From a virus: a stretch of 31,309 bases of DNA. The notes under the pieces were generated by a model that worked only from the letters and a program-made list of their open reading frames with translations, made no database searches and had not been told where the DNA came from. Positions 2,432 through 27,612 of this stretch are shown one piece after another; the first letter of the stretch is position 1; each line of letters begins with the position of its first letter. Location of the stretch: IMG/VR virus record IMGVR_UViG_3300036826_000477, positions 1-31,309 of that record, one strand, 5' to 3'. A program made the position numbers and the translations under genes.

Positions 2432-3030
2432 CCCAAGGGTTCCGGTTCTGGTAGATTGAGCAGATATCCTCCTCCTCGCACTCGATTCACAGACGAGTGA
2501 CGCAGGCTCGTCCAGCCCCATCTGTGATCGGTATGAGAGCTGGCCAGTCCTGTCAGCTCGTAAAGATCTGCCACCGTGGCGGTGTCGTACTTCGAGATCA
2601 GATCGAAGAGCCTGTCCAGTACCTCCTCAGCCTCCTGCCTCGAGGATATGACGATCTCGTCGAAGGCAAACCTCGATCTGGCCTGCCTGGACATGGCCTG
2701 CGGCAGAGAGGGCCTCCCGCTCGATGGAGACATCCTGTGATAGCTGATCTGTCCAAGGGGATTGGACATCGGCCCCCGTCTTGGCCGGGCTTCTCCGTAC
2801 ACCAGCTTCTCGATGAAGCCCTGTCCTGCCTCGACTATTGAGTCCTTTGCTCCTGGGATCAGGACGTTGAAGATGACGTACTGCACGGCGGTATTGGCGT
2901 CTCCGCCGAAGAACGTGCGCTTGAACTGCTTGCCGAGAGGCTTTCTCCGCCTTACAGCTTCGGAGGTGACTCGCTCGACACGCTCCCGGTCAGAAGCCGC
3001 CTTCCGGCTGTTTGGTGGGAAATGTTCCAT
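2428..3030 (-). CDS. Conserved phage protein of unknown function (200 aa)
   Basis: A basic N-terminal third (residues 5-40, many Arg/Lys) leads into FFGGDANTAVQYVIFNVLIPGAKD (about 41-64), which could be an amphipathic or re-entrant helix. A Gly/Ser/Pro-rich middle and a C-terminal domain follow, with EAEEVLDRLFDLISKYDTATVADLYELTG and HRWGWTSLRH. The same succession of blocks is familiar to me from gut-phage hypotheticals. No catalytic motif is visible. The ATG at 3030 has AAAGGA 5 to 6 bp upstream. It is the first gene of an overlapped operon (2428, 2255, 1350, 613, 102, 1), and an intrinsic terminator ends only about 18 bp before its start. Confidence 0.92.
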   Translation of the reverse strand: MEHFPPNSRKAASDRERVERVTSEAVRRRKPLGKQFKRTFFGGDANTAVQYVIFNVLIPGAKDSIVEAGQGFIEKLVYGEARPRRGPMSNPLGQISYHRMSPSSGRPSLPQAMSRQARSRFAFDEIVISSRQEAEEVLDRLFDLISKYDTATVADLYELTGLASSHTDHRWGWTSLRHSSVNRVRGGGYLLNLPEPEPLG

Positions 3031-3047
3031 GGTTCCTTTCGAAATTT

Positions 3048-3078
3048 GAAAAACTGAAATCCCATGTGGGGACTCCAG
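3048..3078 (-). terminator. Intrinsic terminator after the 94-aa gene, just before the next start
   Basis: Reading the minus strand, a 10-bp stem (3069-3078 with 3054-3063, two G-U pairs) with a 5-base loop is followed directly by TTTTTC. It sits 9 bp beyond the stop of the 3087-3371 gene and about 18 bp before the ATG at 3030. Transcription of the downstream operon must therefore read through it or start within the tiny gap. It may act as an attenuator. Confidence 0.75.
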
Positions 3079-3086
3079 TCTGCCTG

Positions 3087-3371
3087 TTACACGACAGGCT
3101 CGGCGGTAACCTCTTCGGTATCGTCTTGCTTCTTGTTCTTCCGGTCGGACAGCCAGGTAGCGACACCATCCACCATCTTCTCCTGCAGGTCAGACGTCGC
3201 ACCACTCACGACACCGCCGATGAACGCGCTCATGAGCTCGATGGGGATTCCATCTTCCTTCATGTTCGTGTTCTTGGCGATGAGTGTGTGTGCGGCTCTG
3301 GCCACGCAGATCGAGACAGTGTAATGGGTCATGCCCTTGGCAATGTCGACCAAGTTGAGCTTGGATAGCAT
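3087..3371 (-). CDS. Small conserved phage protein (94 aa)
   Basis: The start ATG at 3371 has AAGGAG 7 bp upstream and lies about 20 bp from a copy of the 30-bp repeated element, like the other small genes of this region. Residues 15-32 (THYTVSICVARAAHTLIA) and 47-60 (MSAFIGGVVSGATS) are moderately hydrophobic but weak as transmembrane helices. The C-terminus (residues 75-94) is charged and disordered. I recognise the general layout from other phages but no function. It is flanked by a promoter-like element and a strong terminator, so it looks like a single-gene transcription unit. Confidence 0.85.
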   Translation of the reverse strand: MLSKLNLVDIAKGMTHYTVSICVARAAHTLIAKNTNMKEDGIPIELMSAFIGGVVSGATSDLQEKMVDGVATWLSDRKNKKQDDTEEVTAEPVV

Positions 3372-3391
3372 TACTACTCCTTAGATAGGGT

Positions 3392-3421
3392 TCTCATTAC
3401 ATACCATGTAATCTCCGCGAG
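3392..3421 (-). promoter_or_regulatory. 30-bp repeated element, copy H (promoter-like)
   Basis: This is the most distant copy of the family. On the minus strand it reads CTCGCG, GAG, ATTACATGG, then TATGTAATGAGA. The TGTAAT box ends about 25 bp before the ATG of the 94-aa gene. The CGCG, ACATG and TAATGAGA blocks keep the same spacing as in the other seven copies. Confidence 0.75.
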
Positions 3422-3425
3422 GAAA

Positions 3426-3453
3426 CCCGGGGACCCTTACTGGCGCCCCCGGG
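3426..3453 (-). terminator. GC-rich hairpin, probable terminator after the 183-aa gene
   Basis: CCCGGGG (3426-3432) pairs with CCCCGGG (3447-3453) around a 14-base loop, starting about 12 bp after the stop at 3466. On the minus strand it is followed only by TTTCC, so the T-run is poor. The next repeated element begins immediately afterwards. I call it a terminator by position and stability, with reservation. Confidence 0.5.
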
Positions 3454-3465
3454 CTGAGACCCTCT

Positions 3466-4017
3466 CTAGGAGAGCTTGTAGCGCCCCTCCGCCAAGCCAC
3501 TCCTGAGCTCGGCTTCGTCCATCTCGACCAGCTCCTTGCGAGTCAAGACGTGGGGGGGCTGCTGTTCGAAGACGTTTCCCATCCTCTCCGCAGGGGAAGT
3601 CGGCGCCGGCTGAGCCGCCGTGTCCGACGGATGTCCCAGCGCGGCCACATCCTGGTCGATCCCCTGCGGGACGATGCCGTTGACGAACTCGGCCGCTGCG
3701 CCGGCGTCCGTGCACAGATCGAGGAACAGCGTCGAATATGCCTCCGAGGACTGGAACTCGTCGCGCATCTCCTGCGTCTTGATGAACCTTCTCCCGTCGT
3801 CGGACTTGACGCCGTACGACTTGAGGATGAGGTTCCTGAACTCCGTGATGATCGCTGCCCCGTCCTGCGACTCTACGATCCTCTCCAGCCACTTGGCCAG
3901 CCCGCCCTGATGGCTCATCTCCATCTCCACAAGGTCCGCCTTGGAGAGGTGGAAGTAATGGTCCTCGGTGACGGTGTCGCCATTGAGGTCTGTGTAGGTG
4001 ATGCTCTTCTTGAGCAT
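3466..4017 (-). CDS. Conserved phage protein, possibly tail-assembly-chaperone-like (183 aa)
   Basis: The ATG at 4017 follows AAAGGAG and overlaps the upstream stop as TAATG. A longer frame to 4092 lacks a ribosome-binding site. The N-terminal two thirds (MLKKSITYTDLNGD..., FHLSKADLVEMEMSHQGG, LILKSYGVKSDDGRRFIK, EAYSTLFLDLCTDAGAAAEFVNG) resemble, from memory, small phage proteins sometimes labelled tail assembly chaperone. If so, its place among the small genes, about 6 kb past the tape measure, would be odd. Residues about 120-160 are Pro/Ala-rich. The C-terminus has NVFEQQPPHVLTRKELVEMDEAELRSGL, whose NVFEQQ also occurs in the capsid fusion protein. Gene certain, role uncertain. Confidence 0.88.
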   Translation of the reverse strand: MLKKSITYTDLNGDTVTEDHYFHLSKADLVEMEMSHQGGLAKWLERIVESQDGAAIITEFRNLILKSYGVKSDDGRRFIKTQEMRDEFQSSEAYSTLFLDLCTDAGAAAEFVNGIVPQGIDQDVAALGHPSDTAAQPAPTSPAERMGNVFEQQPPHVLTRKELVEMDEAELRSGLAEGRYKLS

Positions 4018-4190
4018 TACTCTCCTTTGTTGGTTTCTTCCAGGCCGTGGGTTGCTTCCTTTGCCCCTATGAAGCGGCCCCATGTCCGCCATTCGGGGAA
4101 CTCCAGGCGAACGATCGGTTGCTCTCCAACGTAACGCTGAAGCCGTTCTATGTCATCGGTCTCGATGTCAATGAGCAGGGTTATGCGCAT
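4017..4190 (-). CDS. Small hypothetical protein between DUF6353-like and chaperone-like genes (57 aa)
   Basis: This frame is under 60 codons. The ATG at 4190 abuts the TAG of the upstream gene (TAGATG), and its TAA overlaps the next ATG (TAATG), so it fits tightly in the operon. The product starts MRITLLIDIETDDIERLQ and ends ATHGLEETNKGE. It is acidic, soluble and looks like a small alpha/beta fold. No family is recognised. The perfect fit between two gene boundaries is the main evidence. Confidence 0.8.
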   Translation of the reverse strand: MRITLLIDIETDDIERLQRYVGEQPIVRLEFPEWRTWGRFIGAKEATHGLEETNKGE

Positions 4191-4985
4191 CTAATAGAGC
4201 TGGGTGTAGTCGGGCTTGGGCGGGTTGTTGAAGTCGATGGCGATGCATGGGCGATCGTCGGGCGAGGTCGTCGTGGAGAACCGGACCTCGAGCGCTCCGG
4301 TCTGGAACGTGTTCCATCCGACCTCGTCTGTGAAGTTGGTCGGTTGAAGGCCGATCTCCTCGTAGAACATGCTCAGGCTCGCATACTGATGATTGAACAG
4401 TTCCTGATTGATCCGGTTCTCGGCCTTCTTGATATTCTCGACCGTGCTCTGGAAGTACCGCCCCGTGAGCATGTCGTAGCAAAGGACATCACCGTTGGTG
4501 ATGATGATGACCTCCTTGGGGGGATTCTCGGTAACACGATCCTGAGCGATCTCGTCACGGAGTGCCTTCTCTTTGCCGACGCCGAGCTTCTCGGTGACCT
4601 TGTCCTTATACTCACGGAGATTCCGCTCGGACAGGCCATAGGCTGCGGCAAGCGCAGCCGCGCGCTTCGCCGACATCATGTTGGCTGCGACGATGCTGCC
4701 GATGGTCGCAGTGGCCACGAGCACCGGCGGGATGTACTGTGGCCAGACGAGCTTGACCTTCTCGGTCTTGGTCATCGGATAGTTCTCATCGTCAAGGCCA
4801 TTTTCGTTCCGGTGGTCGTCCCGAAGCGTCTCGATCTCTTGGATGAGCTCGGCAGCCTTGAACGTTGCCTTGGCGGTGAGGACGCCCGTTGCCACCGTCC
4901 CGGCGACTCCTACCGCCGTGAGGATGGACGAGGCGTTGTCGGTGAGGAACTGGCCAGCCTTCTGCTGGATGATGCTGAGGTTCAT
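4191..4985 (-). CDS. Membrane protein resembling the DUF6353 family, copy 2 (264 aa)
   Basis: There are two hydrophobic segments, near residues 18-38 (ASSILTAVGVAGTVATGVLT) and 83-106 (IPPVLVATATIGSIVAANMM). They are followed by AALAAAYGLSERNLREYKDKV, a helical region, and a soluble C-terminal domain with IIITNGDVLCYDMLTGRYFQS and AIDFNNPPKP. The same arrangement, including a helix beginning ERNL after TM2, occurs in the 302-aa protein at 1350-2258, so I regard the two as paralogs. I associate this architecture with the DUF6353 phage family (unverified). No function is known. An AAAGG lies about 9 bp upstream of the ATG. Confidence 0.92.
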   Translation of the reverse strand: MNLSIIQQKAGQFLTDNASSILTAVGVAGTVATGVLTAKATFKAAELIQEIETLRDDHRNENGLDDENYPMTKTEKVKLVWPQYIPPVLVATATIGSIVAANMMSAKRAAALAAAYGLSERNLREYKDKVTEKLGVGKEKALRDEIAQDRVTENPPKEVIIITNGDVLCYDMLTGRYFQSTVENIKKAENRINQELFNHQYASLSMFYEEIGLQPTNFTDEVGWNTFQTGALEVRFSTTTSPDDRPCIAIDFNNPPKPDYTQLY

Positions 4986-5005
4986 TTGGATACCTTTGAA
5001 TCGAG

Positions 5006-5176
5006 TTAGCGGTTCCGCATTTCGCGGACGAAGATCCAGATGAGCCAGATCCCACCAGTAAGAAACGTCATGAAGACGTCGAAGATGAACGACATACAGC
5101 CATACGGCTTCCGTGCCGAGTAAGACATGCGATCCGGGTACGTCCTTTCTGTGTAGGTGATGCGCGTCTTAGCCAT
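5006..5176 (-). CDS. Small single-pass membrane protein (56 aa)
   Basis: This frame is under 60 codons. It runs from ATG at 5176 to TAA at 5006-5008, beginning MAKTRITYTERTYPDRMSY. A hydrophobic aromatic segment at about residues 29-50 (SFIFDVFMTFLTGGIWLIWI) is followed by a positive tail FVREMRNR. That topology (short soluble N-terminus, one TM, basic C-terminus) is common for small actinophage membrane proteins. The start overlaps the upstream stop by 8 bp, with GGAG about 10 bp before it. Function unknown. Confidence 0.85.
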   Translation of the reverse strand: MAKTRITYTERTYPDRMSYSARKPYGCMSFIFDVFMTFLTGGIWLIWIFVREMRNR

Positions 5177-5327
5177 TGCGTTTGACTCCGATCGCGCTGG
5201 GATTGCGCTTCATGGCGCGCTTCTCCGCGGTTTCTCTCGATGTGGCCTGCACCATGACGGTCCGGGTCACGTCGTTCGAGAAATATAGAACGACCGAGTA
5301 CAGTCGCTTTGACTTCTTGAGGCGCAT
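5169..5327 (-). CDS. Small basic protein (52 aa)
   Basis: I place the start at ATG 5327, which has GGAGG 5 bp upstream; the longer frame to 5363 has none. The product, MRLKKSKRLYSVVLYFSNDV..., reads like a short beta-hairpin followed by a helix (SRETAEKRAMKRNPS), with net strong positive charge. The helix plus basic tail suggests a nucleic-acid or ribosome-type contact, but that is inference. It is the first gene after repeated-element copy G and its hairpin-bearing leader, and it overlaps the next small gene by 8 bp. Confidence 0.82.
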   Translation of the reverse strand: MRLKKSKRLYSVVLYFSNDVTRTVMVQATSRETAEKRAMKRNPSAIGVKRNG

Positions 5328-5347
5328 TCGCCCTCCTTGATTGGGAG

Positions 5348-5423
5348 AAATAAAAAGAGCCAACCGCTCGTGTGCTATGCACTCAAAGCGGGGCGTGCGC
5401 TATGCGCTCAACCTAATGGCTCT
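5348..5423 (-). ncRNA. Structured leader or small RNA with two covarying hairpins
   Basis: On the minus strand, directly after the TATAAT of element copy G, AGAGCCA (5417-5423) can pair with TGGCTCT (5356-5362), which is followed by TTTTTATTT. Inside lie two 16-base repeats (5394-5409 and 5369-5384). They differ at only two bases, and both changes preserve pairing: GCGC-ATA-GCGC versus GTGC-ATA-GCAC. CCGCT/AGCGG encloses the second. This looks like an RNA with a terminator-like closing stem, either an attenuator for the 52-aa gene or an independent RNA. The repeats could instead be paired protein operators. The closing stem may begin slightly before the predicted start of transcription. Confidence 0.45.
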
Positions 5424-5450
5424 CATTATACGACGTGTTTTCTTCGCGAA
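5421..5450 (-). promoter_or_regulatory. 30-bp repeated element, copy G (promoter-like)
   Basis: On the minus strand: TTCGCGAA, GAAAACACG, TCG, TATAATGAGA. It has a perfect TATAAT and a perfect TTCGCGAA palindrome. It begins right at the stop codon (5452-5454) of the preceding gene, with no terminator between. It leads into a 93-bp leader instead of the usual roughly 20 bp. Confidence 0.75.
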
Positions 5451-5451
5451 A

Positions 5452-5880
5452 TTAGACCGCCAGGCAGATCCTCTCGAAGTGAAGACCTTGGGCATTTTCC
5501 TGCAAGCCATTCAACTGCCTAGAGATATTGCTTGCAGTAACGCCCGTCGCGGCAGCAGCCGCTCTTTGCGAAGTGAAGATTTCTCCGGTCTCTTTCAATC
5601 TCACTACCCAGCTTGGTGATCCCTGCCTTTCGGCAGAAATGAAAGAGACATTGCGCATCACAATCCTCTTCCTGGCCACGATAGCATCACGGCCAGCAGT
5701 CACGATAACATCACGATTGATAGATTGTGAGGCAATGCCTCTCACTATAAGACATGTAATTCCCGCGAATGCAGCACCGCCTGTTGCGGCAAGATACGTT
5801 CTCTTGTTCTCCTGAAGATGCGTCTTGACCCTCTGATACTTCTCACCAGTTGCTATGGCTTCCATCTTTTCCTTGATCAT
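5452..5880 (-). CDS. Membrane-anchor plus IENR1/NUMOD1-like helix-turn-helix protein (142 aa)
   Basis: I choose ATG 5880 (GGAAGGG upstream) over an in-frame TTG at 5904. Residues 1-30 are charged, about 32-50 are hydrophobic (TYLAATGGAAFAGITCLIV), and about 75-142 form a separate domain. That domain, WVVRLKETGEIFTSQRAAAAATGVTASNISRQLNG...GLHFERI, has the pattern of IENR1/NUMOD1-type helix-turn-helix modules that accompany phage nucleases, but no nuclease is attached. A copy of the 30-bp repeated element lies inside the frame between the two halves. An internal ATG at 5658, with AGGAAGAGG 6 bp upstream, would give the 68-aa HTH alone. It looks like two small genes fused in frame. A DNA-binding role is inferred. 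Confidence 0.85.
   Translation of the reverse strand: MIKEKMEAIATGEKYQRVKTHLQENKRTYLAATGGAAFAGITCLIVRGIASQSINRDVIVTAGRDAIVARKRIVMRNVSFISAERQGSPSWVVRLKETGEIFTSQRAAAAATGVTASNISRQLNGLQENAQGLHFERICLAV
5740..5769 (-). promoter_or_regulatory. 30-bp repeated element, copy F, embedded in a coding region
   Basis: On the minus strand: TTCGCG, GGA, ATTACATGTCT, TATAGTGAGA. It is nearly identical to copy E although it also encodes residues of the host ORF. It is followed at once by a small inverted repeat (GAGGC-ATT-GCCTC). The next plausible start codon in the same direction is the internal ATG at 5658. Confidence 0.65.
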
Positions 5881-5900
5881 TGGTTCCCTTCCATGGGTTG

Positions 5901-6022
5901 ACAAATAAAAGAGAAGGAGGATACTGGTAGTTACGGGCTTTCACCGATTTAGCTCGATCCTTATAGTCCCGACGCGGTTAGTCTTCAAACATTACTGTTC
6001 TTGATACCGGGACTTCCTTCTC
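5901..6022 (-). ncRNA. Candidate structured RNA leader with three-way junction
   Basis: The 138 bp between element copy E and the ATG at 5880 hold no gene. On the minus strand it can fold as a compact junction. P1 pairs GAGAAGGA (6015-6022) with TCCTTCTC (5911-5918). P2 pairs AGTCCCG (6008-6014) with CGGGACT (5965-5971). P3 pairs GGAT (5957-5960) with ATCC (5919-5922). P1/P2 and P1/P3 abut without gaps, and P1 is followed by TTTTATTT. It could be a riboswitch-like attenuator or an independent small RNA. It is not a tRNA: there is no T-arm or anticodon arm. If transcription starts 6-7 bp after TATAAT, part of P1 would lie outside the transcript. Confidence 0.4.
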
Positions 6023-6048
6023 ATTATAAGACATGTAATTTTCGCGAA
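6019..6048 (-). promoter_or_regulatory. 30-bp repeated element, copy E (promoter-like)
   Basis: On the minus strand: TTCGCGAA, AATTACATG, TCT, TATAATGAGA. It has a perfect TATAAT at 6023-6028 and a perfect TTCGCGAA palindrome. Its 5' end continues from the T-run of the terminator at 6048-6075. It leads into the structured leader rather than directly into a gene. Confidence 0.78.
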
Positions 6049-6075
6049 AAACCTAAGCCCCTTTCGGGGCTGAGG
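6044..6075 (-). terminator. Intrinsic terminator after the 59-aa gene at 6084
   Basis: On the minus strand CCTCAGCCCC-GAAA-GGGGCTTAGG forms a strong stem with a GAAA tetraloop and one mismatch, followed by TTTTT. The T-run passes straight into TTCGCGAA of element copy E, so terminator and next element share sequence. Confidence 0.9.
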
Positions 6076-6083
6076 CTGAGTTG

Positions 6084-6263
6084 CTACTTGTCGGACTGCT
6101 TGATCCGGCGGTCGACTTCCTTAGCCCAGGCCAAGGAGTTCCGACGGTCGGTCACGGCGCCGATCAGCTGGCCCATCCCGGTGAGGACGGCAGCGACGAC
6201 ACCAAGAGCAAGCGCGGGGTTCTCCTCGGCCTGATGCTTCAGGTTCTCGTAAAACTGGTTCAT
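6084..6263 (-). CDS. Small conserved membrane-associated protein (59 aa)
   Basis: This frame is just below 60 codons. It runs from ATG 6263 (AAAGGAAG 6 bp upstream) to TAG at 6084-6086. The protein begins MNQFYENLKHQAEENP, has a hydrophobic stretch at about 17-37 (LALGVVAAVLTGMGQLIGAV), then a basic helix TDRRNSLAWAKEVDRRIKQ. Similar N-tail, TM and Arg-rich-tail proteins are frequent among gut-phage hypotheticals. It is a complete single-gene unit: element copy D about 20 bp upstream and a strong terminator downstream. Function unknown. Confidence 0.87.
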   Translation of the reverse strand: MNQFYENLKHQAEENPALALGVVAAVLTGMGQLIGAVTDRRNSLAWAKEVDRRIKQSDK

Positions 6264-6283
6264 GACACTTCCTTTGGTAGTGG

Positions 6284-6313
6284 TCTCATTACATACCGTG
6301 TAATTTTCGCGAA
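6284..6313 (-). promoter_or_regulatory. 30-bp repeated element, copy D (promoter-like)
   Basis: On the minus strand: TTCGCGAA, AATTACACGGTA, TGTAATGAGA. The box is TGTAAT instead of TATAAT. It is continued by CCACTACC before the AAAGGA of the 59-aa gene, 20 bp from its ATG. Copy C has the same CCACTA extension. Confidence 0.75.
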
Positions 6314-6339
6314 AAAGAGAAACCGTGATGATTTCTCTT
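6312..6339 (-). terminator. Intrinsic terminator after the 68-aa gene
   Basis: On the minus strand AGAGAAA (6332-6338) pairs with TTTCTCT (6316-6322) around a 9-base loop, followed by TTTT that runs into TTCGCGAA of element copy D. It lies about 8 bp after the stop of the 6347-6553 gene. Confidence 0.75.
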
Positions 6340-6346
6340 ATTGGGA

Positions 6347-6553
6347 TTACTCCTTGGTGGCAGCGAGGTACTGCTTCGCGGCCTCGAGCTTGATTCGTTG
6401 AACGTCCAGGTCGAACTGACGACGGTTCAGGTATGCTCGCATCGGAGGAAGATATCCGAGGATGGTCTTCCGTCCGTGGTCGATCATACGCTGAGCCTCG
6501 TCAAGCTCTCGTAAACGAACTTCAATTTCAACAGCGAGGGGCAAATCAGACAT
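6347..6553 (-). CDS. Small helical cytoplasmic protein (68 aa)
   Basis: The ATG at 6553 has AAAGG 7 bp upstream. The product (MSDLPLAVEIEVRLRELDEAQRM...) is predominantly charged helix, consistent with a coiled coil or helical hairpin broken near YLPPM. It has no membrane segment, unlike most of its neighbours. No family is recognised. It forms a single-gene unit between element copy C upstream (20 bp from the start) and a terminator downstream. Confidence 0.85.
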   Translation of the reverse strand: MSDLPLAVEIEVRLRELDEAQRMIDHGRKTILGYLPPMRAYLNRRQFDLDVQRIKLEAAKQYLAATKE

Positions 6554-6573
6554 GGTAGCCTTTCAATTAGTGG

Positions 6574-6603
6574 TCTCATTACAGGCCATGTTTTCGTCGC
6601 GAA
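6574..6603 (-). promoter_or_regulatory. 30-bp repeated element, copy C (promoter-like)
   Basis: On the minus strand: TTCGCGA, CGAAAACATGGCC, TGTAATGAGA, then CCACTA. It lies 20 bp before the ATG of the 68-aa gene, and its 5' end is fused to the T-run of the preceding terminator. Confidence 0.75.
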
Positions 6604-6631
6604 AAACCAAAGCCCCGTGAGGGGCTGAGGC
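6599..6631 (-). terminator. Intrinsic terminator after the 59-aa gene at 6633
   Basis: On the minus strand AGCCCC (6621-6626) pairs with GGGGCT (6611-6616) around TCAC. It is followed by TTGGTTTTT merging with TTCGCGA of copy C. The stem closely resembles the one at 6044-6075, suggesting the whole gene cassette was duplicated or exchanged. Confidence 0.88.
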
Positions 6632-6632
6632 T

Positions 6633-6812
6633 TTAGACTTCCATTCCGATGGCGTGAAACTCATCGTACAGGTTGTGCTCCTTCAGGAACTCGGCATACT
6701 GCTGACCGCATCGGTAGGTGAGGTACAGTCCGGCGCTGAGGCCGACCGCAACACCATACTTGAAGCGATGGCAAACGACGTGATTCTTGATGGAGACGAT
6801 CTTGTTCTTCAT
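6633..6812 (-). CDS. Small membrane-associated protein (59 aa)
   Basis: This frame is just below 60 codons. It runs from ATG 6812 (AAGGATAAAGCC upstream) to TAA at 6633-6635. It has a basic N-terminus MKNKIVSIKNHVVCHRFK, a short hydrophobic segment at about 19-34 (YGVAVGLSAGLYLTYR), and a soluble acidic tail with QYAEFLKEHNLYDEFHAIGMEV. No family is recognised. Element copy B lies 22 bp upstream and a strong terminator lies directly downstream, so it is a self-contained unit. Confidence 0.85.
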   Translation of the reverse strand: MKNKIVSIKNHVVCHRFKYGVAVGLSAGLYLTYRCGQQYAEFLKEHNLYDEFHAIGMEV

Positions 6813-6834
6813 GGCTTTATCCTTAGAATAGGGG

Positions 6835-6864
6835 TCTCACTATAAGCCATGTAAATCTCGCGAA
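6835..6864 (-). promoter_or_regulatory. 30-bp repeated element, copy B (promoter-like)
   Basis: On the minus strand: TTCGCGA, GATTTACATGGCT, TATAGTGAGA, followed by CCCCTA. It lies 22 bp before the ATG of the 59-aa gene at 6633-6812, with the preceding terminator's ATATTTTT at its 5' end. Confidence 0.75.
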
Positions 6865-6926
6865 AAATATAACCCCATGTAAAGCGAAGACACCATGTAT
6901 CTCTACACAGCGCCTTCGCCTTACCT
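6861..6926 (-). terminator. Long-stem terminator after the 93-aa gene
   Basis: GTAAGGCGAAG (minus strand, 6914-6924) pairs with CTTCGCTTTAC (6879-6889) as an 11-bp stem with one G-U. A 24-base loop can itself form a small hairpin (TGTA-GAGA-TACA). Downstream is GGGGTTATATTTTT, running into element copy B. The long loop and late T-run make it weaker than the neighbouring terminators. Confidence 0.65.
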
Positions 6927-6937
6927 TGGAGGGAGTC

Positions 6938-7219
6938 TTATCTCGGCTTCAGAACGAAGCTCAGAGCCTTCGATGTGATGACGTTGACACGCTCGTGATG
7001 TATGATCATGAAGATTCCCACGAGGTTGGCGCCCACGGTCAGGATCGTGTCGGGGCTGGGAAGATTCGGCTTCTCATCTTGCCTTATCTTCTGCAGCTTC
7101 CCGAGACGGTCCAGGAACGAGGCGTACTCCTCGGAGTCGATCTCCAGATCGTGCAGCTCGCGCACGGTTTTCGAAATCAGATCGTCGACATAAGTCTTCT
7201 TCTCTTTGAACGGCGACAT
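6938..7219 (-). CDS. Conserved phage protein with C-terminal hydrophobic segment (93 aa)
   Basis: I place the start at ATG 7219 (AAAGGAG 6 bp upstream); an upstream in-frame start at 7252 would lie inside element copy A. Residues 1-55 are charged and helical (KTYVDDLISKTVRELHDLEIDSEEYASFLDRLGKLQKIR). About 60-76 are hydrophobic (ILTVGANLVGIFMIIHH), followed by ERVNVITSKALSFVLKPR. I recognise this arrangement as a common gut-phage hypothetical. Function unknown. It is the first small gene after the lysis region, with its own element and terminator. Confidence 0.9.
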   Translation of the reverse strand: MSPFKEKKTYVDDLISKTVRELHDLEIDSEEYASFLDRLGKLQKIRQDEKPNLPSPDTILTVGANLVGIFMIIHHERVNVITSKALSFVLKPR

Positions 7220-7236
7220 TACTCTCCTTTGTTTGG

Positions 7237-7266
7237 TCTCACTATATGCCATGTTCTGGCCGCGAG
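7237..7266 (-). promoter_or_regulatory. 30-bp repeated element, copy A (promoter-like)
   Basis: On the minus strand: CTCGCGG, CCAGAACATGGCA, TATAGTGAGA. It is the first copy met in the direction of transcription. It lies 12 bp after the stop of the lysis-region membrane peptide and 17 bp before the ATG at 7219. There is no T-run at its 5' end, unlike copies B to E. Confidence 0.72.
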
Positions 7267-7277
7267 ACCACAGGAGA

Positions 7278-7367
7278 CTAGAGCCGGTATGCGATGATGA
7301 GGAGAACGACGATCAGTACGACGAAGATGACCATGTAGATCAGCAACATCAAGGCGCGATCAGGCAT
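7278..7367 (-). CDS. Tiny single-TM peptide next to the holin (29 aa)
   Basis: This frame is only 30 codons. It runs from ATG 7367, overlapping the holin stop by 8 bp, to TAG at 7278-7280. The sequence is almost wholly a transmembrane helix: short N-terminus MPDRAL, hydrophobic residues 7-26 (MLLIYMVIFVVLIVVLLIIA), and a YRL tail. An accessory or anti-holin role is a reasonable guess from the position, not shown by the sequence. No strong ribosome-binding site is seen, so translation is probably coupled to the holin gene. Confidence 0.7.
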   Translation of the reverse strand: MPDRALMLLIYMVIFVVLIVVLLIIAYRL

Positions 7368-7698
7368 TCTTTTGAACCTTGAAGAGGATCTGGTCTTTTC
7401 CCTCGAGATGGTATTCCGGGTCGTCATAGAGCTCCAGGGAGAAGTTTCTCTTTCCCGGAGCCGGCTCGGTGATGACAAGATTCCCGTCATACCTGGCATC
7501 GCTGGCGTTGTATGCCGTGGTAGAAATATGGAGAAGCACACCCAGGAAGGTGTCCACGGCCACGATGGTCCCCACCACCTTCTCCGCCGCCGGAAATCCC
7601 CAGATCCCAGCCAGAGCGAAATACAAAGTCCCCAGAGCCGGAAGCAGGACCTGCGCAAGAAACTTGAGCCGATCGTAGAGCTTGTTGTCCTTGATCAT
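7360..7698 (-). CDS. Holin, r1t-like (112 aa)
   Basis: Two hydrophobic segments lie at about residues 14-33 (LAQVLLPALGTLYFALAGIW) and 39-57 (EKVVGTIVAVDTFLGVLLHIS), with the short N-terminus LYDRLKF. The pattern of two TMs, LLPALGTLYFALAGIWG and a VVGTIVAVDTFLG block is that of r1t-type phage holins as I know them. The C-terminal 50 residues (NLVITEPAPGKRNF...) are soluble and longer than in the minimal family. Holins form membrane lesions at lysis time. The neighbours agree: two other membrane proteins upstream and a tiny TM peptide downstream. The ATG overlaps the previous stop as TGATG or similar. Confidence 0.85.
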   Translation of the reverse strand: MIKDNKLYDRLKFLAQVLLPALGTLYFALAGIWGFPAAEKVVGTIVAVDTFLGVLLHISTTAYNASDARYDGNLVITEPAPGKRNFSLELYDDPEYHLEGKDQILFKVQKNA

Positions 7699-8027
7699 CT
7701 GTTGATCCCCTTGCAGTTCACGTCCTGGAATGCCGCGGCAACCCGTCTCTGGTTGTCCAGTCCTTGCTTGATGGCTTCGGGCGAGATTCCCTGGACGCCT
7801 CTAGGATGCTCGATGAGGAAGAGCTCTCCCTGCTGGATACGCGCCTCCACGTCCGCCCGATACGTGCAGAGCGCCTTCTGGTTGTTCCTGGAGACGCTCC
7901 AGGTGTAGAGAACCCCCGAGACCAGGCCGACGAAGAGCACCACCGTGGCAATGACAAGCCGGCGCAAGGTCTTCTTGATGTCTCTCACAGCTTTGCTTGC
8001 GGTGTCGTCGTAGACGTCGCTAGTCAA
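7695..8027 (-). CDS. Lysis-region membrane protein (110 aa)
   Basis: Residues about 20-45 are hydrophobic (RRLVIATVVLFVGLVSGVLY) after a charged N-terminus. An extracytoplasmic-looking domain follows with two cysteines (CTYRADVEARIQQG... and FQDVNC) and GISPEAIKQGLDNQRR. I recognise the layout as a membrane protein commonly placed beside holins in actinophages; its role is not established. Two starts compete. GTG at 8033 has the AGGAGG almost touching it, while TTG at 8027 is spaced 7 bp from it, so I prefer TTG. It overlaps the upstream gene's stop by 8 bp. Confidence 0.82.
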   Translation of the reverse strand: MTSDVYDDTASKAVRDIKKTLRRLVIATVVLFVGLVSGVLYTWSVSRNNQKALCTYRADVEARIQQGELFLIEHPRGVQGISPEAIKQGLDNQRRVAAAFQDVNCKGINR

Positions 8028-25399: not shown

Positions 25400-25864
25400 T
25401 TACGTGAACTCGATAACAACAACTCTGACGTTGCGAAACTGGATGGTCCCTTCTGGAGAAACAGAGTGGTCGAGATCCCATCGCCAGAAGCCGAAGGCAG
25501 GATGTAGCTCCACATCCCAGGTCGCGACAGTGAGGATCGGATCAACAGTCTGGAACATCCCCCAAGAATCTATCGTGTCTTCCATACCGATGTCCGTCCC
25601 GAACTGCTGGTTGTAGTCCTCTTCTCCCTCCGCCTTCACGACGATTGTGAAAGAGGCCTGATCATCGACCGTGTCGAACTTGCGCTCGGCTGTCGCCCAG
25701 AGGACGTATATCGAGTTCTTCGAGATCTTGATCCCTGGGAGAGATGGATCCACGAATGGATTGTTCACATCCGTCCAGTTGTCCGATTCGAACATCCGGA
25801 CCTGCCTGTCCTCGAGCAGGGTGACAGGACCAGACCTCGAGAAGATTCGATCCATGTTGTTCAC
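25400..25864 (-). CDS. Unknown protein between large terminase and portal (154 aa)
   Basis: The GTG at 25864 overlaps the terminase stop as GTGA and has AGGAGG 7 bp upstream; the ATG three codons later is 16 bp away, so GTG is preferred. The protein is acidic, aromatic and beta-rich (NSIYVLWATAERKFDTVDDQASFTIVVKAEGE, DSWGMFQTVDPILTVATWDVELHPAFGFWRWDLDHS) and ends VRVVVIEFT. It has no TM or known motif. From its position it could be a minor capsid, packaging or portal-associated protein. I do not recognise it. Confidence 0.9.
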   Translation of the reverse strand: MNNMDRIFSRSGPVTLLEDRQVRMFESDNWTDVNNPFVDPSLPGIKISKNSIYVLWATAERKFDTVDDQASFTIVVKAEGEEDYNQQFGTDIGMEDTIDSWGMFQTVDPILTVATWDVELHPAFGFWRWDLDHSVSPEGTIQFRNVRVVVIEFT

Positions 25865-27603
25865 TCGAACGCCTCCTTGTTCGCCTTGTATGCGACGTAG
25901 GCGTCCATGAGGGCCGCCACGTTGTCGATCTTCTCCTCCTGGCGCTTCTTGAGGAGCTTCCGGTTGCCGTTGGTGTCCTCCATGGTGATCGCGTTGCCCA
26001 TGGCGAACTGCATGAGAAGCTCGTCGAAGATGAGCAGTCGCTCCTCGCTGAGGATCTTGAGCTCTCCCAGTGGGACCGACTCCGTCTTAGCCCCCTGGAT
26101 AACCTTCTCGATCCCGAAGGGCCCGTTCTCGGCCTCCCAGCGAGTGACGAACACCTTGGCGTTGTACGGGTCGTAGCCAAGGGCCCTGACGTCGTACTCG
26201 GAGACCAGCACGAACTTGTCGAGATCCTCGTAGACCTCGTCGATGTCGAGCACGGTGCCCTCCATCACGTGAAGCGAGCCCTCGTTGATGAACTCCTCGT
26301 ACTTCTGCCGCATCGCGGCCTGGAGCTTCATCAGCGTCAGCGAAGTGATGTAAGATCTCGTCTTGACGCCGAAGCCGTGTCTCAGAGGGAAGAGGAACGT
26401 GAACGCGCAGAAGTCGTCGCCTTGCGAGAGGTCTGCTCCGAGCGCGCACGGGAGCTGCCAGAACTCCTGATGGCGATGCGGAAGAGTCTCCTCATAGGTG
26501 AAGAAATACGTGTACCCTTCCATCGGGATCCCGAAGCGCTTCGCCAGGATGTCATTACGTGAAGCCGGTGCTTTCTCCGCCCGCTCCACATCAAGATGAT
26601 ATGTTTCATACGTCACCGTCTGTCCGAGATTGGGATTGGCCTTCAGCCACGTCGACGGATCCCCTACTTCCTCGATCTCGTCCAGCTTGTAGTGCCAGAT
26701 CGAGATGTGCGGCGCGGTGTACTCGCCCTTGAGGATGTCCATGAGTTCCATTTTGATGGTATCGCCGGAACCAGCTCGGACCGTTCCCTCGGAGCTGATG
26801 GCGATGATCAAATAGTCCTCGAGCTTCGACGCGCCCTGCTCGACAGCGCCGATGACGTCCTCTCGGAGATCTCCGGACAGCCACTCGTCGATGGTGGCGA
26901 TCTTTGTCCGCAATCCCTGAAGCTTGTTGATGGCCATGGGCCGGATCTCGAACAGCGAACCGGTTAGGAAGTTCTCGATCCCCTTCTTCGTCGACGCCAG
27001 CTTCTGACGGAGCATCCGATTGCCCGTCGTGTTCTGCATCGATCCTTCGGTCAGAAACTGGAACAGCGGTCCCCGCGCGCGCGTGATCGCCGTCCTGATC
27101 GGCGACATGACCTCCTCGGCCTGCTTCATCGTCGGAGCCGTCGTGACCTGATGCGTGGTCGACGTATCGACGGTCATGAAGTAGGCCTGGATGAGAGCGG
27201 CGTACATCGACTTGGCTGCGCCTCTGGCCACGATGAGATACTGCTTGAGCGTCAGCCTCTTCTTGATCGTCCTCGTCTCGTAGTGGCCGCCCCGATCTCC
27301 TTCGGACGGGACATAGACGCTACGATCGACGAAGTAGTACCAGCCGAAGATCTGCTCGGACCACAGCTTGAACGTGAACAGGAGGTGGAGGTCCGCTCCG
27401 TCGGTGAGAGTCATCTCACCCTCACAGAACCGGATGAATCCCTCCACCGCCTGGTCGTCGTAGTAGATGTTCGGATTGGAGATGAGCGCGTCGATGCGGT
27501 TCATCTCCATGGAGATCTCCCGGTTGACCGGGATCTCGCCTCGGATGACGGCTTCGCGGAACTGTCCGTAATAGATCGGTGTCGCGGTGTTGGACAGTCC
27601 CAT
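25861..27603 (-). CDS. terL: Terminase large subunit (580 aa)
   Basis: The N-terminal ATPase has a deviant Walker A, VARGAAKSMYAA (about 126-137), and a Walker B/catalytic stretch KIATIDEWLSG near 236-246. C-terminal nuclease motifs with acidic residues are ALGADLSQGDDF, ALGYDPYNAKVF and the final NVAALMDAYVAYKA. Together these mark a DNA-packaging ATPase plus nuclease that docks on the portal. I start at ATG 27603 (GGAGG 5 bp upstream) rather than at GTG 27609, whose SD would touch it. The gene is followed by an overlapping 154-aa unknown, then portal. Size and gene order are typical of gut siphophages. Confidence 0.96.
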   Translation of the reverse strand: MGLSNTATPIYYGQFREAVIRGEIPVNREISMEMNRIDALISNPNIYYDDQAVEGFIRFCEGEMTLTDGADLHLLFTFKLWSEQIFGWYYFVDRSVYVPSEGDRGGHYETRTIKKRLTLKQYLIVARGAAKSMYAALIQAYFMTVDTSTTHQVTTAPTMKQAEEVMSPIRTAITRARGPLFQFLTEGSMQNTTGNRMLRQKLASTKKGIENFLTGSLFEIRPMAINKLQGLRTKIATIDEWLSGDLREDVIGAVEQGASKLEDYLIIAISSEGTVRAGSGDTIKMELMDILKGEYTAPHISIWHYKLDEIEEVGDPSTWLKANPNLGQTVTYETYHLDVERAEKAPASRNDILAKRFGIPMEGYTYFFTYEETLPHRHQEFWQLPCALGADLSQGDDFCAFTFLFPLRHGFGVKTRSYITSLTLMKLQAAMRQKYEEFINEGSLHVMEGTVLDIDEVYEDLDKFVLVSEYDVRALGYDPYNAKVFVTRWEAENGPFGIEKVIQGAKTESVPLGELKILSEERLLIFDELLMQFAMGNAITMEDTNGNRKLLKKRQEEKIDNVAALMDAYVAYKANKEAFE

Positions 27604-27612
27604 AGCCACCTC

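Follow-up and report, generated by a model that had tools for sequence, protein, structure and literature searches.

Which RNA polymerase reads a promoter-like element that heads tiny phage genes and carries a TATAAT box with no conserved partner hexamer upstream? The question is raised by IMG/VR record IMGVR_UViG_3300036826_000477, a virus record of 31,309 bases (58.8% GC) that was analysed in its entirety and is called the window below, in which eight copies of a 30-bp element lie on the minus strand between positions 3,392 and 7,266. A first-pass annotation, made from the letters alone, had pointed out these copies and had considered a promoter dependent on a phage activator, an operator, or a start-associated sequence of the kind known from mycobacteriophages. 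From comparisons of sequences and predicted folds we consider it probable, with good confidence, that the element serves as promoter for an RNA polymerase which the phage itself encodes, a single-chain two-barrel enzyme of the phrog_4291 family, and not as a site read by the host.

The element and its range across phages

All eight copies match the pattern TCGCG-N6-ACAYG-N3-TRTARTGAGA without mismatches or gaps, and a matrix built from them gives the copies scores of 39-51, the next site of the window reaching 5.0. A pattern scan that tolerates up to three mismatches detects no ninth site in the window, where chance alone would give 0.01. The second base of the box is A in five copies and G in three. 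The half-sites TCGCR and ACAYR are 11 bp apart, which corresponds to one helical turn, and resemble each other as nCnYG. Five copies are located 17-22 nt upstream of an ATG that is preceded by a Shine-Dalgarno sequence, and the other three (copies 5, 6, and 7 in Table 1) stand before structured RNAs, with no start codon close by. A conserved -35 hexamer at 16-18 bp from the box is absent among the eight copies, and a scan of the window with the sigma70 consensus recovers none of them. The first-pass annotation was thus right about the number, strand, and position of the copies, their fixed-spacing blocks, their absence elsewhere in the window, the five start codons, and the missing -35; its proposals of a promoter lacking a -35 and of an element driving tiny genes are supported, five copies each heading a small gene. 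It had also correctly placed the ACATG or ACACG block downstream of TCGCG, at a spacing of about 7 bases that has to be corrected to a gap of exactly 6 bases in all eight copies.

The motif search in related phage genomes that had been suggested as a check revealed the same blocks with the same spacing well beyond chance. In the collection viral_contigs, the exact pattern occurs at 150 sites in 111 stretches, against a chance expectation of about 1, which is the author's estimate from a pattern of about 37 bits and a rough collection size. The general form across phages is yCRCR-N6-ACAYR-N3-TATARTRRRA with the spacing kept, and pattern and matrix searches, with a broader matrix for the Streptomyces, Arthrobacter, Microbacterium, Lactococcus, and oral phages, detected equally spaced elements in phages of Gordonia, Rhodococcus, Streptomyces, Arthrobacter, Microbacterium, and Lactococcus. 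Every named polymerase-bearing phage that was read has matrix hits (Kenosha 8, ReqiPepy6 15, RavenPuff 4, Tribby 8, Meibysrarus 9, Gordon 9, DizzyRudy 7), as does an oral caudovirus (8). Lactococcus phage P1046 carries at least 5 sites of a variant that is diverged yet equally spaced (TTCACATGTTTTACACATGCTATAGTAGAA); some P1046 sites score near the reversed-sequence control, and only the best five are safe. The choice between TCGCG and TCGCA was considered as a marker of specificity and rejected, because many genomes mix both.

Structured RNAs and the predicted transcript start

The position of the element relative to its products was determined for 398 distinct sites across genomes, 314 of which precede an open reading frame (ORF), the start codon following the TATA box mostly by 23-31 nt, and 84 of which do not. 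At all three ORF-less copies of the window, the stem of a predicted RNA begins right after the box. A closing stem was defined as at least 7 pairs with a T-run immediately after the 3' strand, 35-170 nt downstream; such a stem is present at 42 of the 84 ORF-less sites, compared to 5.2 in shuffled sequences. At 18 of the 84 sites its first base is the one that directly follows the box (shuffles give 0.2), and in 31 to 34 of the 42 cases it begins within -3 to +2 of that position (34 with 7 at -3, 3 at -2, 2 at -1, 18 at 0, 1 at +1, and 3 at +2). Where the end of the element varies, the 3' strand of the stem co-varies with it, as in the pairs GAGG/CCTC (sequence L039), GAAG/CTTC (L057), and GAAA/TTTC (L081). 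Furthermore, copies of the element stand directly before tRNA genes or tRNA-like sequences in ReqiPepy6, Gordon, P1046, and the oral phage, only the tRNA of ReqiPepy6 being annotated.

Read in this way, the RNA would include the GAGA of the element, and its first base would lie where the box ends or no more than about 3 nt away. A sigma70 promoter starts its RNA about 7 nt after TATAAT. Since the RNA appears to begin right after the box, the box is probably not a sigma70 -10 hexamer, and the earlier impression that it looks like one did not survive this comparison, nor the concerted replacement of the box in related genomes described below.

An Rfam search of window positions 3000-7800 gave no match. 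Some of the RNAs share tRNA-like pieces (gAcACnAATGTg ... GGTGAAAnnCC), namely, that of window positions 5911-6022 and those of L008, L093, L096, L106, L143, and L228, and the L106 RNA holds a true T-arm sequence (GGTTCGAATCC); the predicted RNAs with such pieces may together be one family of phage RNAs that resemble tRNAs. In L112:18326-18440 (Kenosha 33325-33439), the element directly precedes a short tRNA-like sequence (gggaagta...ggttcgatccctggtacatccca). The genome announcement of Vardy, a close relative of Kenosha, reports no tRNA genes.

Concerted change of the TATA box

Two genomes have altered their boxes in nearly all copies. In genome G066 all eight copies have TCTAAT, with C at position 2, and in genome G080 the box reads T[TGA]A[GA]AT in 18 of 19 copies; the TCGCR, AC, and GA-rich start blocks are retained in these copies, being fixed by the search pattern, which left the middle of the box free. 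The A at position 2 is thereby lost in nearly all copies of both genomes. Host sigmaA requires A at the second position of the -10 hexamer. The concerted change is best explained by a phage-encoded reader that would have changed together with its sites.

A putative single-chain polymerase of the phrog_4291 family

A candidate for such a reader is the product of Kenosha gene 89, a protein of 900 amino acids annotated as hypothetical, which carries the sequence ADFDGD and matches phrog_4291, a family labelled RNA-dependent RNA polymerase. The family comprises a core protein of about 900 amino acids, in which SGADFDGD is invariant in alignments of 18 and of 79 members, so that the DxDGD catalytic motif expected in the second barrel of two-barrel RNA polymerases is present. 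Of 50,697 phage records, 250 contain a homologue, and most of these belong to phages of Arthrobacter, Gordonia, Streptomyces, and Lactococcus. The labels of the protein vary among GenBank records, of which MN010761 with its gene 89 is an example, and include RNA-dependent RNA polymerase, helix-turn-helix (HTH) DNA-binding protein, structural protein, and hypothetical protein.

A sequence search of the PDB with the polymerase gave no polymerase match and only matches at the level of HTH segments, and therefore a fold search was needed. The AlphaFold (AF2) model of the L082 protein (885 amino acids; mean predicted local distance difference test score 82.8, predicted template modelling score 0.71) aligns through residues ~228-722 with QDE-1 (Z 16.4, 381 residues, 4.5 A), with RDR2 of plants (Z 17.1), and with gp62/gp64 of Thermus phage (Z 13.1), all of which are two-barrel polymerases formed by one chain. 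Matches to the crAss phage virion RNA polymerase (E 0.19) and to phrog_8308, the PHROG of YonO (E 9.5e-4), are weak. According to the modelled fold, the phrog_4291 core is a putative single-chain two-barrel RNA polymerase.

Outside this core, the helices of L082 at 41-141 and 806-883 hold HTH-like segments, which are accompanied by matches to phrog_664 and phrog_3855, and the alignment shows two similar HTHs in tandem at the N terminus. Matches to sigma-70 region 4, all below the curated cut-off of the family, were obtained in 12 of 20 records and lie within the polymerase-sized ORF in all 12; Lactococcus phage P1046 has two extra region-4 matches in small ORFs. A phage-encoded sigma factor was considered and rejected, Sigma70_r2 being absent in 20 of 20 records with positive controls detected. 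No T7-type polymerase (PF00940) was found in any of 43 records, a weak result in that the search had no positive control.

Co-occurrence of element and polymerase

These 43 records comprise 42 chosen for carrying the element plus the window, and a homologue of the polymerase is encoded in 28 of them. Among the element-selected records, it is present in 26 of the 29 with a length of at least 42 kb and in all 15 of at least 50 kb. Conversely, 18 of 22 IMG/VR records chosen only by the polymerase contain the element (at most two mismatches), with all matches of a record on one strand and none to the pattern read backwards. When records were chosen only by similarity of the capsid protein to that of the window, the element was found in 18 of 18 and the polymerase in all 11 of at least 42 kb, the 7 without polymerase being shorter. 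Six control actinophages without the polymerase, including the Rhodococcus phages ReqiPine5 and ReqiDocB7, contain no element, and Rhodococcus phage ReqiPepy6 has both. The element is thus present where the polymerase is and absent where it is not, apart from some fragments and three records of 44-48 kb. The window is without the right arm, where relatives carry the polymerase gene; the link of its element to the polymerase rests on these relatives, and the phage from which it derives presumably encodes the enzyme as well.

Proposed mechanism and alternative explanations

In the mechanism that we propose, HTH domains fused to the polymerase would read TCGCR and ACAYR, the assignment of individual domains to half-sites being conjectural. 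The TATA box and the A/T-rich stretch would then be melted, and transcription would start within about 3 nt of the box, giving a purine-rich RNA (R-U-G-A-G-A... or G-A-G-A) without a host sigma factor. The transcribed units would be tiny and in many cases monocistronic, and several follow an intrinsic terminator directly. Lactococcus phage 1706 has a homologue, orf75, annotated as a structural protein, which is cited in turn for gp106 of ReqiPepy6. If this label derives from virion proteomics, the polymerase would enter with the DNA and the genes behind the element would be early; we give packaging in the virion and early expression an even chance. The complete scheme is more tentative and falls slightly short of even odds: a sigma-free one-polypeptide system with tandem N-terminal HTHs on the half-sites and a two-barrel core starting at the TATA box, which would be delivered by the virion for host-takeover genes and structured RNAs and be conserved in phages of Actinobacteria and Firmicutes.

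Several points weigh against the assignment of the element to the phrog_4291 polymerase. The start position is read from RNA folding, half of the ORF-less sites are without a closing stem, and the shuffled controls retained nothing but base composition. In three records of 44-48 kb the element is present but no polymerase was detected, and the polymerase gene was not found in the 31-kb window, which is a fragment. Upstream of yonK in SPbeta, the phage of the distantly related polymerase YonO, no element-like site was seen. Finally, records with the capsid protein (245) nearly coincide with those with the polymerase (250); because the two proteins mark nearly the same phages, the co-occurrence points to a core gene set and not to the polymerase alone.

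This last point is what speaks for a separate core initiation factor that recognises the element and recruits a phage or host polymerase, the polymerase not being singled out within the core gene set. We regard such a factor as unlikely, given that no homologue of sigma region 2 was found in 20 records and that the region-4-like HTHs sit inside the polymerase ORF.

Less likely still is a reading of the box as -10 hexamer by the host enzyme, guided by its main sigma factor, with a phage activator at TCGCR/ACAYR replacing the -35 as at the MotA-dependent middle promoters of T4. TATAAT does fit the -10 consensus, TCGCR would fall at about -31 to -27, and published notes name the motif a sigma70 -10 (PMC9671010, PMC10868162). 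Against this stand the RNA stems that begin right after the box, too early for sigma70, the altered box (TCTAAT or T[TGA]A[GA]AT) that some genomes carry in nearly every copy, the retention of the element from Lactococcus to Streptomyces phages, and the lack of a sigma70-type match at all eight copies. Of the earlier suggestion that the element may need a phage activator, the phage factor is retained, and in place of an activator a whole RNA polymerase is likelier.

That the element acts mainly as an operator, or as a start-associated recombination sequence marking exchangeable gene cassettes, is very improbable, although it could have such a role secondarily: it is repeated, intergenic, and located beside terminators and small variable genes, and repeats could aid cassette exchange, but tRNA genes and hairpin RNAs also follow it, at a fixed offset to the RNA start, and within any one genome the copies share a strand. 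The start-associated sequence (SAS) of mycobacteriophages has a 13-bp consensus (GGGATAGGAGCCC). In the window it has 2 matches at 2 mismatches, with 1.4 expected, and none at the element, so that the analogy drawn in the first-pass annotation was abandoned.

Genes and neighbourhood in the window

The minus-strand genes of the window encode terminase (25861-27609), portal, capsid/protease, tape measure, tail, and holin (7360-7698) proteins and then the small genes, which are listed with the elements and RNAs in Table 1.

Table 1 Proposed promoter elements, predicted RNAs, and small genes behind the elements in the window
Feature	Position	Strand	Evidence and context
Promoter element copy 1 (CTCGCGGCCAGAACATGGCATATAGTGAGA)	7237..7266	-	Pattern and matrix; then Shine-Dalgarno sequence and ATG at 7219
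Promoter element copy 2	6835..6864	-	Pattern and matrix; ATG at 6812
Promoter element copy 3	6574..6603	-	Terminator-like hairpin (6626-6611) directly upstream; ATG at 6553
Promoter element copy 4	6284..6313	-	Pattern and matrix; ATG at 6263
Promoter element copy 5	6019..6048	-	Terminator-like hairpin (6071-6056) upstream; ORF-less RNA downstream
Promoter element copy 6	5740..5769	-	Nested in frame within ORF ending at 5452
Promoter element copy 7	5421..5450	-	ORF-less RNA downstream
Promoter element copy 8	3392..3421	-	Pattern and matrix; ATG at 3371
Predicted 112-nt non-coding RNA	5911..6022	-	Closing stem GAGAAGGA/TCCTTCTC, then TTTT; -30.4 kcal/mol, z -1.5
Predicted 101-nt hairpin RNA	5643..5743	-	Closing stem GAGAGGCATTGC/GCAATGTCTCTT; -48 kcal/mol, z -5.3
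Predicted 70-nt non-coding RNA	5355..5424	-	Closing stem GAGAGCCA/TGGCTCTT, then T-run; -30.2 kcal/mol, z -3.2
93-aa small gene, phrog_5818	6938..7219	-	Probably driven by copy 1
59-aa gene, phrog_12653	6633..6812	-	Probably driven by copy 2
68-aa gene	6347..6553	-	Probably driven by copy 3
59-aa gene, phrog_18827	6084..6263	-	Probably driven by copy 4
94-aa gene, weak phrog_7539 match	3087..3371	-	Probably driven by copy 8

The longest ORF behind copy 1 (6938-7252, minus strand) begins at an ATG within the ACATG of the element, upstream of the predicted transcript start; its true start is probably the ATG at 7219, and comparable mis-starts are likely in annotated relatives. Copy 6 lies in frame inside an ORF for a conserved protein (phrog_27818; 5452-5880, minus strand), of which it encodes the hydrophobic segment FAGITCLIVRG. 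The same nesting of the element in an ORF is found in L063 (VIFAGITCYIVRD), followed there by a NUMOD-like C-terminal part. At 1350-2258 and 4191-4985 (minus strand), the window encodes two membrane proteins of the DUF6353/phrog_2152 type that are paralogues.

Significance and comparison with known systems

It is largely an open question how the single-chain relatives of cellular RNA polymerase, which do not use sigma factors, locate their promoters. Here the promoter and its likely polymerase are legible in hundreds of genomes, including those of some 200 isolated phages, and the question can therefore be put to a direct test that takes a single protein and a 30-bp DNA. The assignment would re-label a core protein now annotated as HTH protein or RNA-dependent RNA polymerase, would make start sites and small RNAs predictable genome-wide, and might provide an orthogonal expression system for Gram-positive hosts.

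A motif of this kind has been described in phages of Gordonia cluster DJ: the announcements of Vardy and Conley report a 50-bp or 43-bp MEME motif with TATAAT between small genes and read it as a host sigma70 -10 promoter (PMC9671010, PMC10868162). Kenosha, the close relative of Vardy, has the present element eight times in the corresponding gene region. These reports each concern a single phage and do not describe a polymerase, a start site, RNA products, or occurrence outside cluster DJ. Among the papers listed by a search of the open-access literature with the core sequence TATAATGAGA, none concerned these phages. The motif in cluster DJ and, as a kind, phage RNA polymerases with promoters of their own are already known. 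Four things appear new when measured against the open-access literature: that this element is linked to the phrog_4291 polymerase, that transcription would start at its TATA box, which RNAs would be produced, and that phages of two phyla carry it.

The closest parallel is Thermus phage P23-45, whose virion polymerase gp96 and non-virion polymerase gp64, the latter a DNA-templated enzyme, are likewise single-chain two-barrel polymerases with phage-specific promoter motifs, assigned in part from the co-occurrence of motif and polymerase (PMC10770324). These promoters were, however, mapped by cappable-seq and chromatin immunoprecipitation sequencing (ChIP-seq), and the motifs are described as AT-rich and GC-rich (PMC10770324), whereas the phrog_4291 polymerase is flanked by HTH domains on either side of its core. 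YonO of Bacillus phage SPbeta is also a single-chain RNA polymerase distantly related to the multisubunit enzymes and transcribes phage genes, but belongs to a separate PHROG (phrog_8308); its promoter was in 2017 still to be determined according to its authors (PMC5467207). Promoters of the T7 type resemble the element in having an A/T-rich part, a specificity block, a TATA sequence, and a purine-rich start that coincides with the box or adjoins it, and differ from it in that the polymerase found here is of the two-barrel type and that the element has an additional upstream block, TCGCR.

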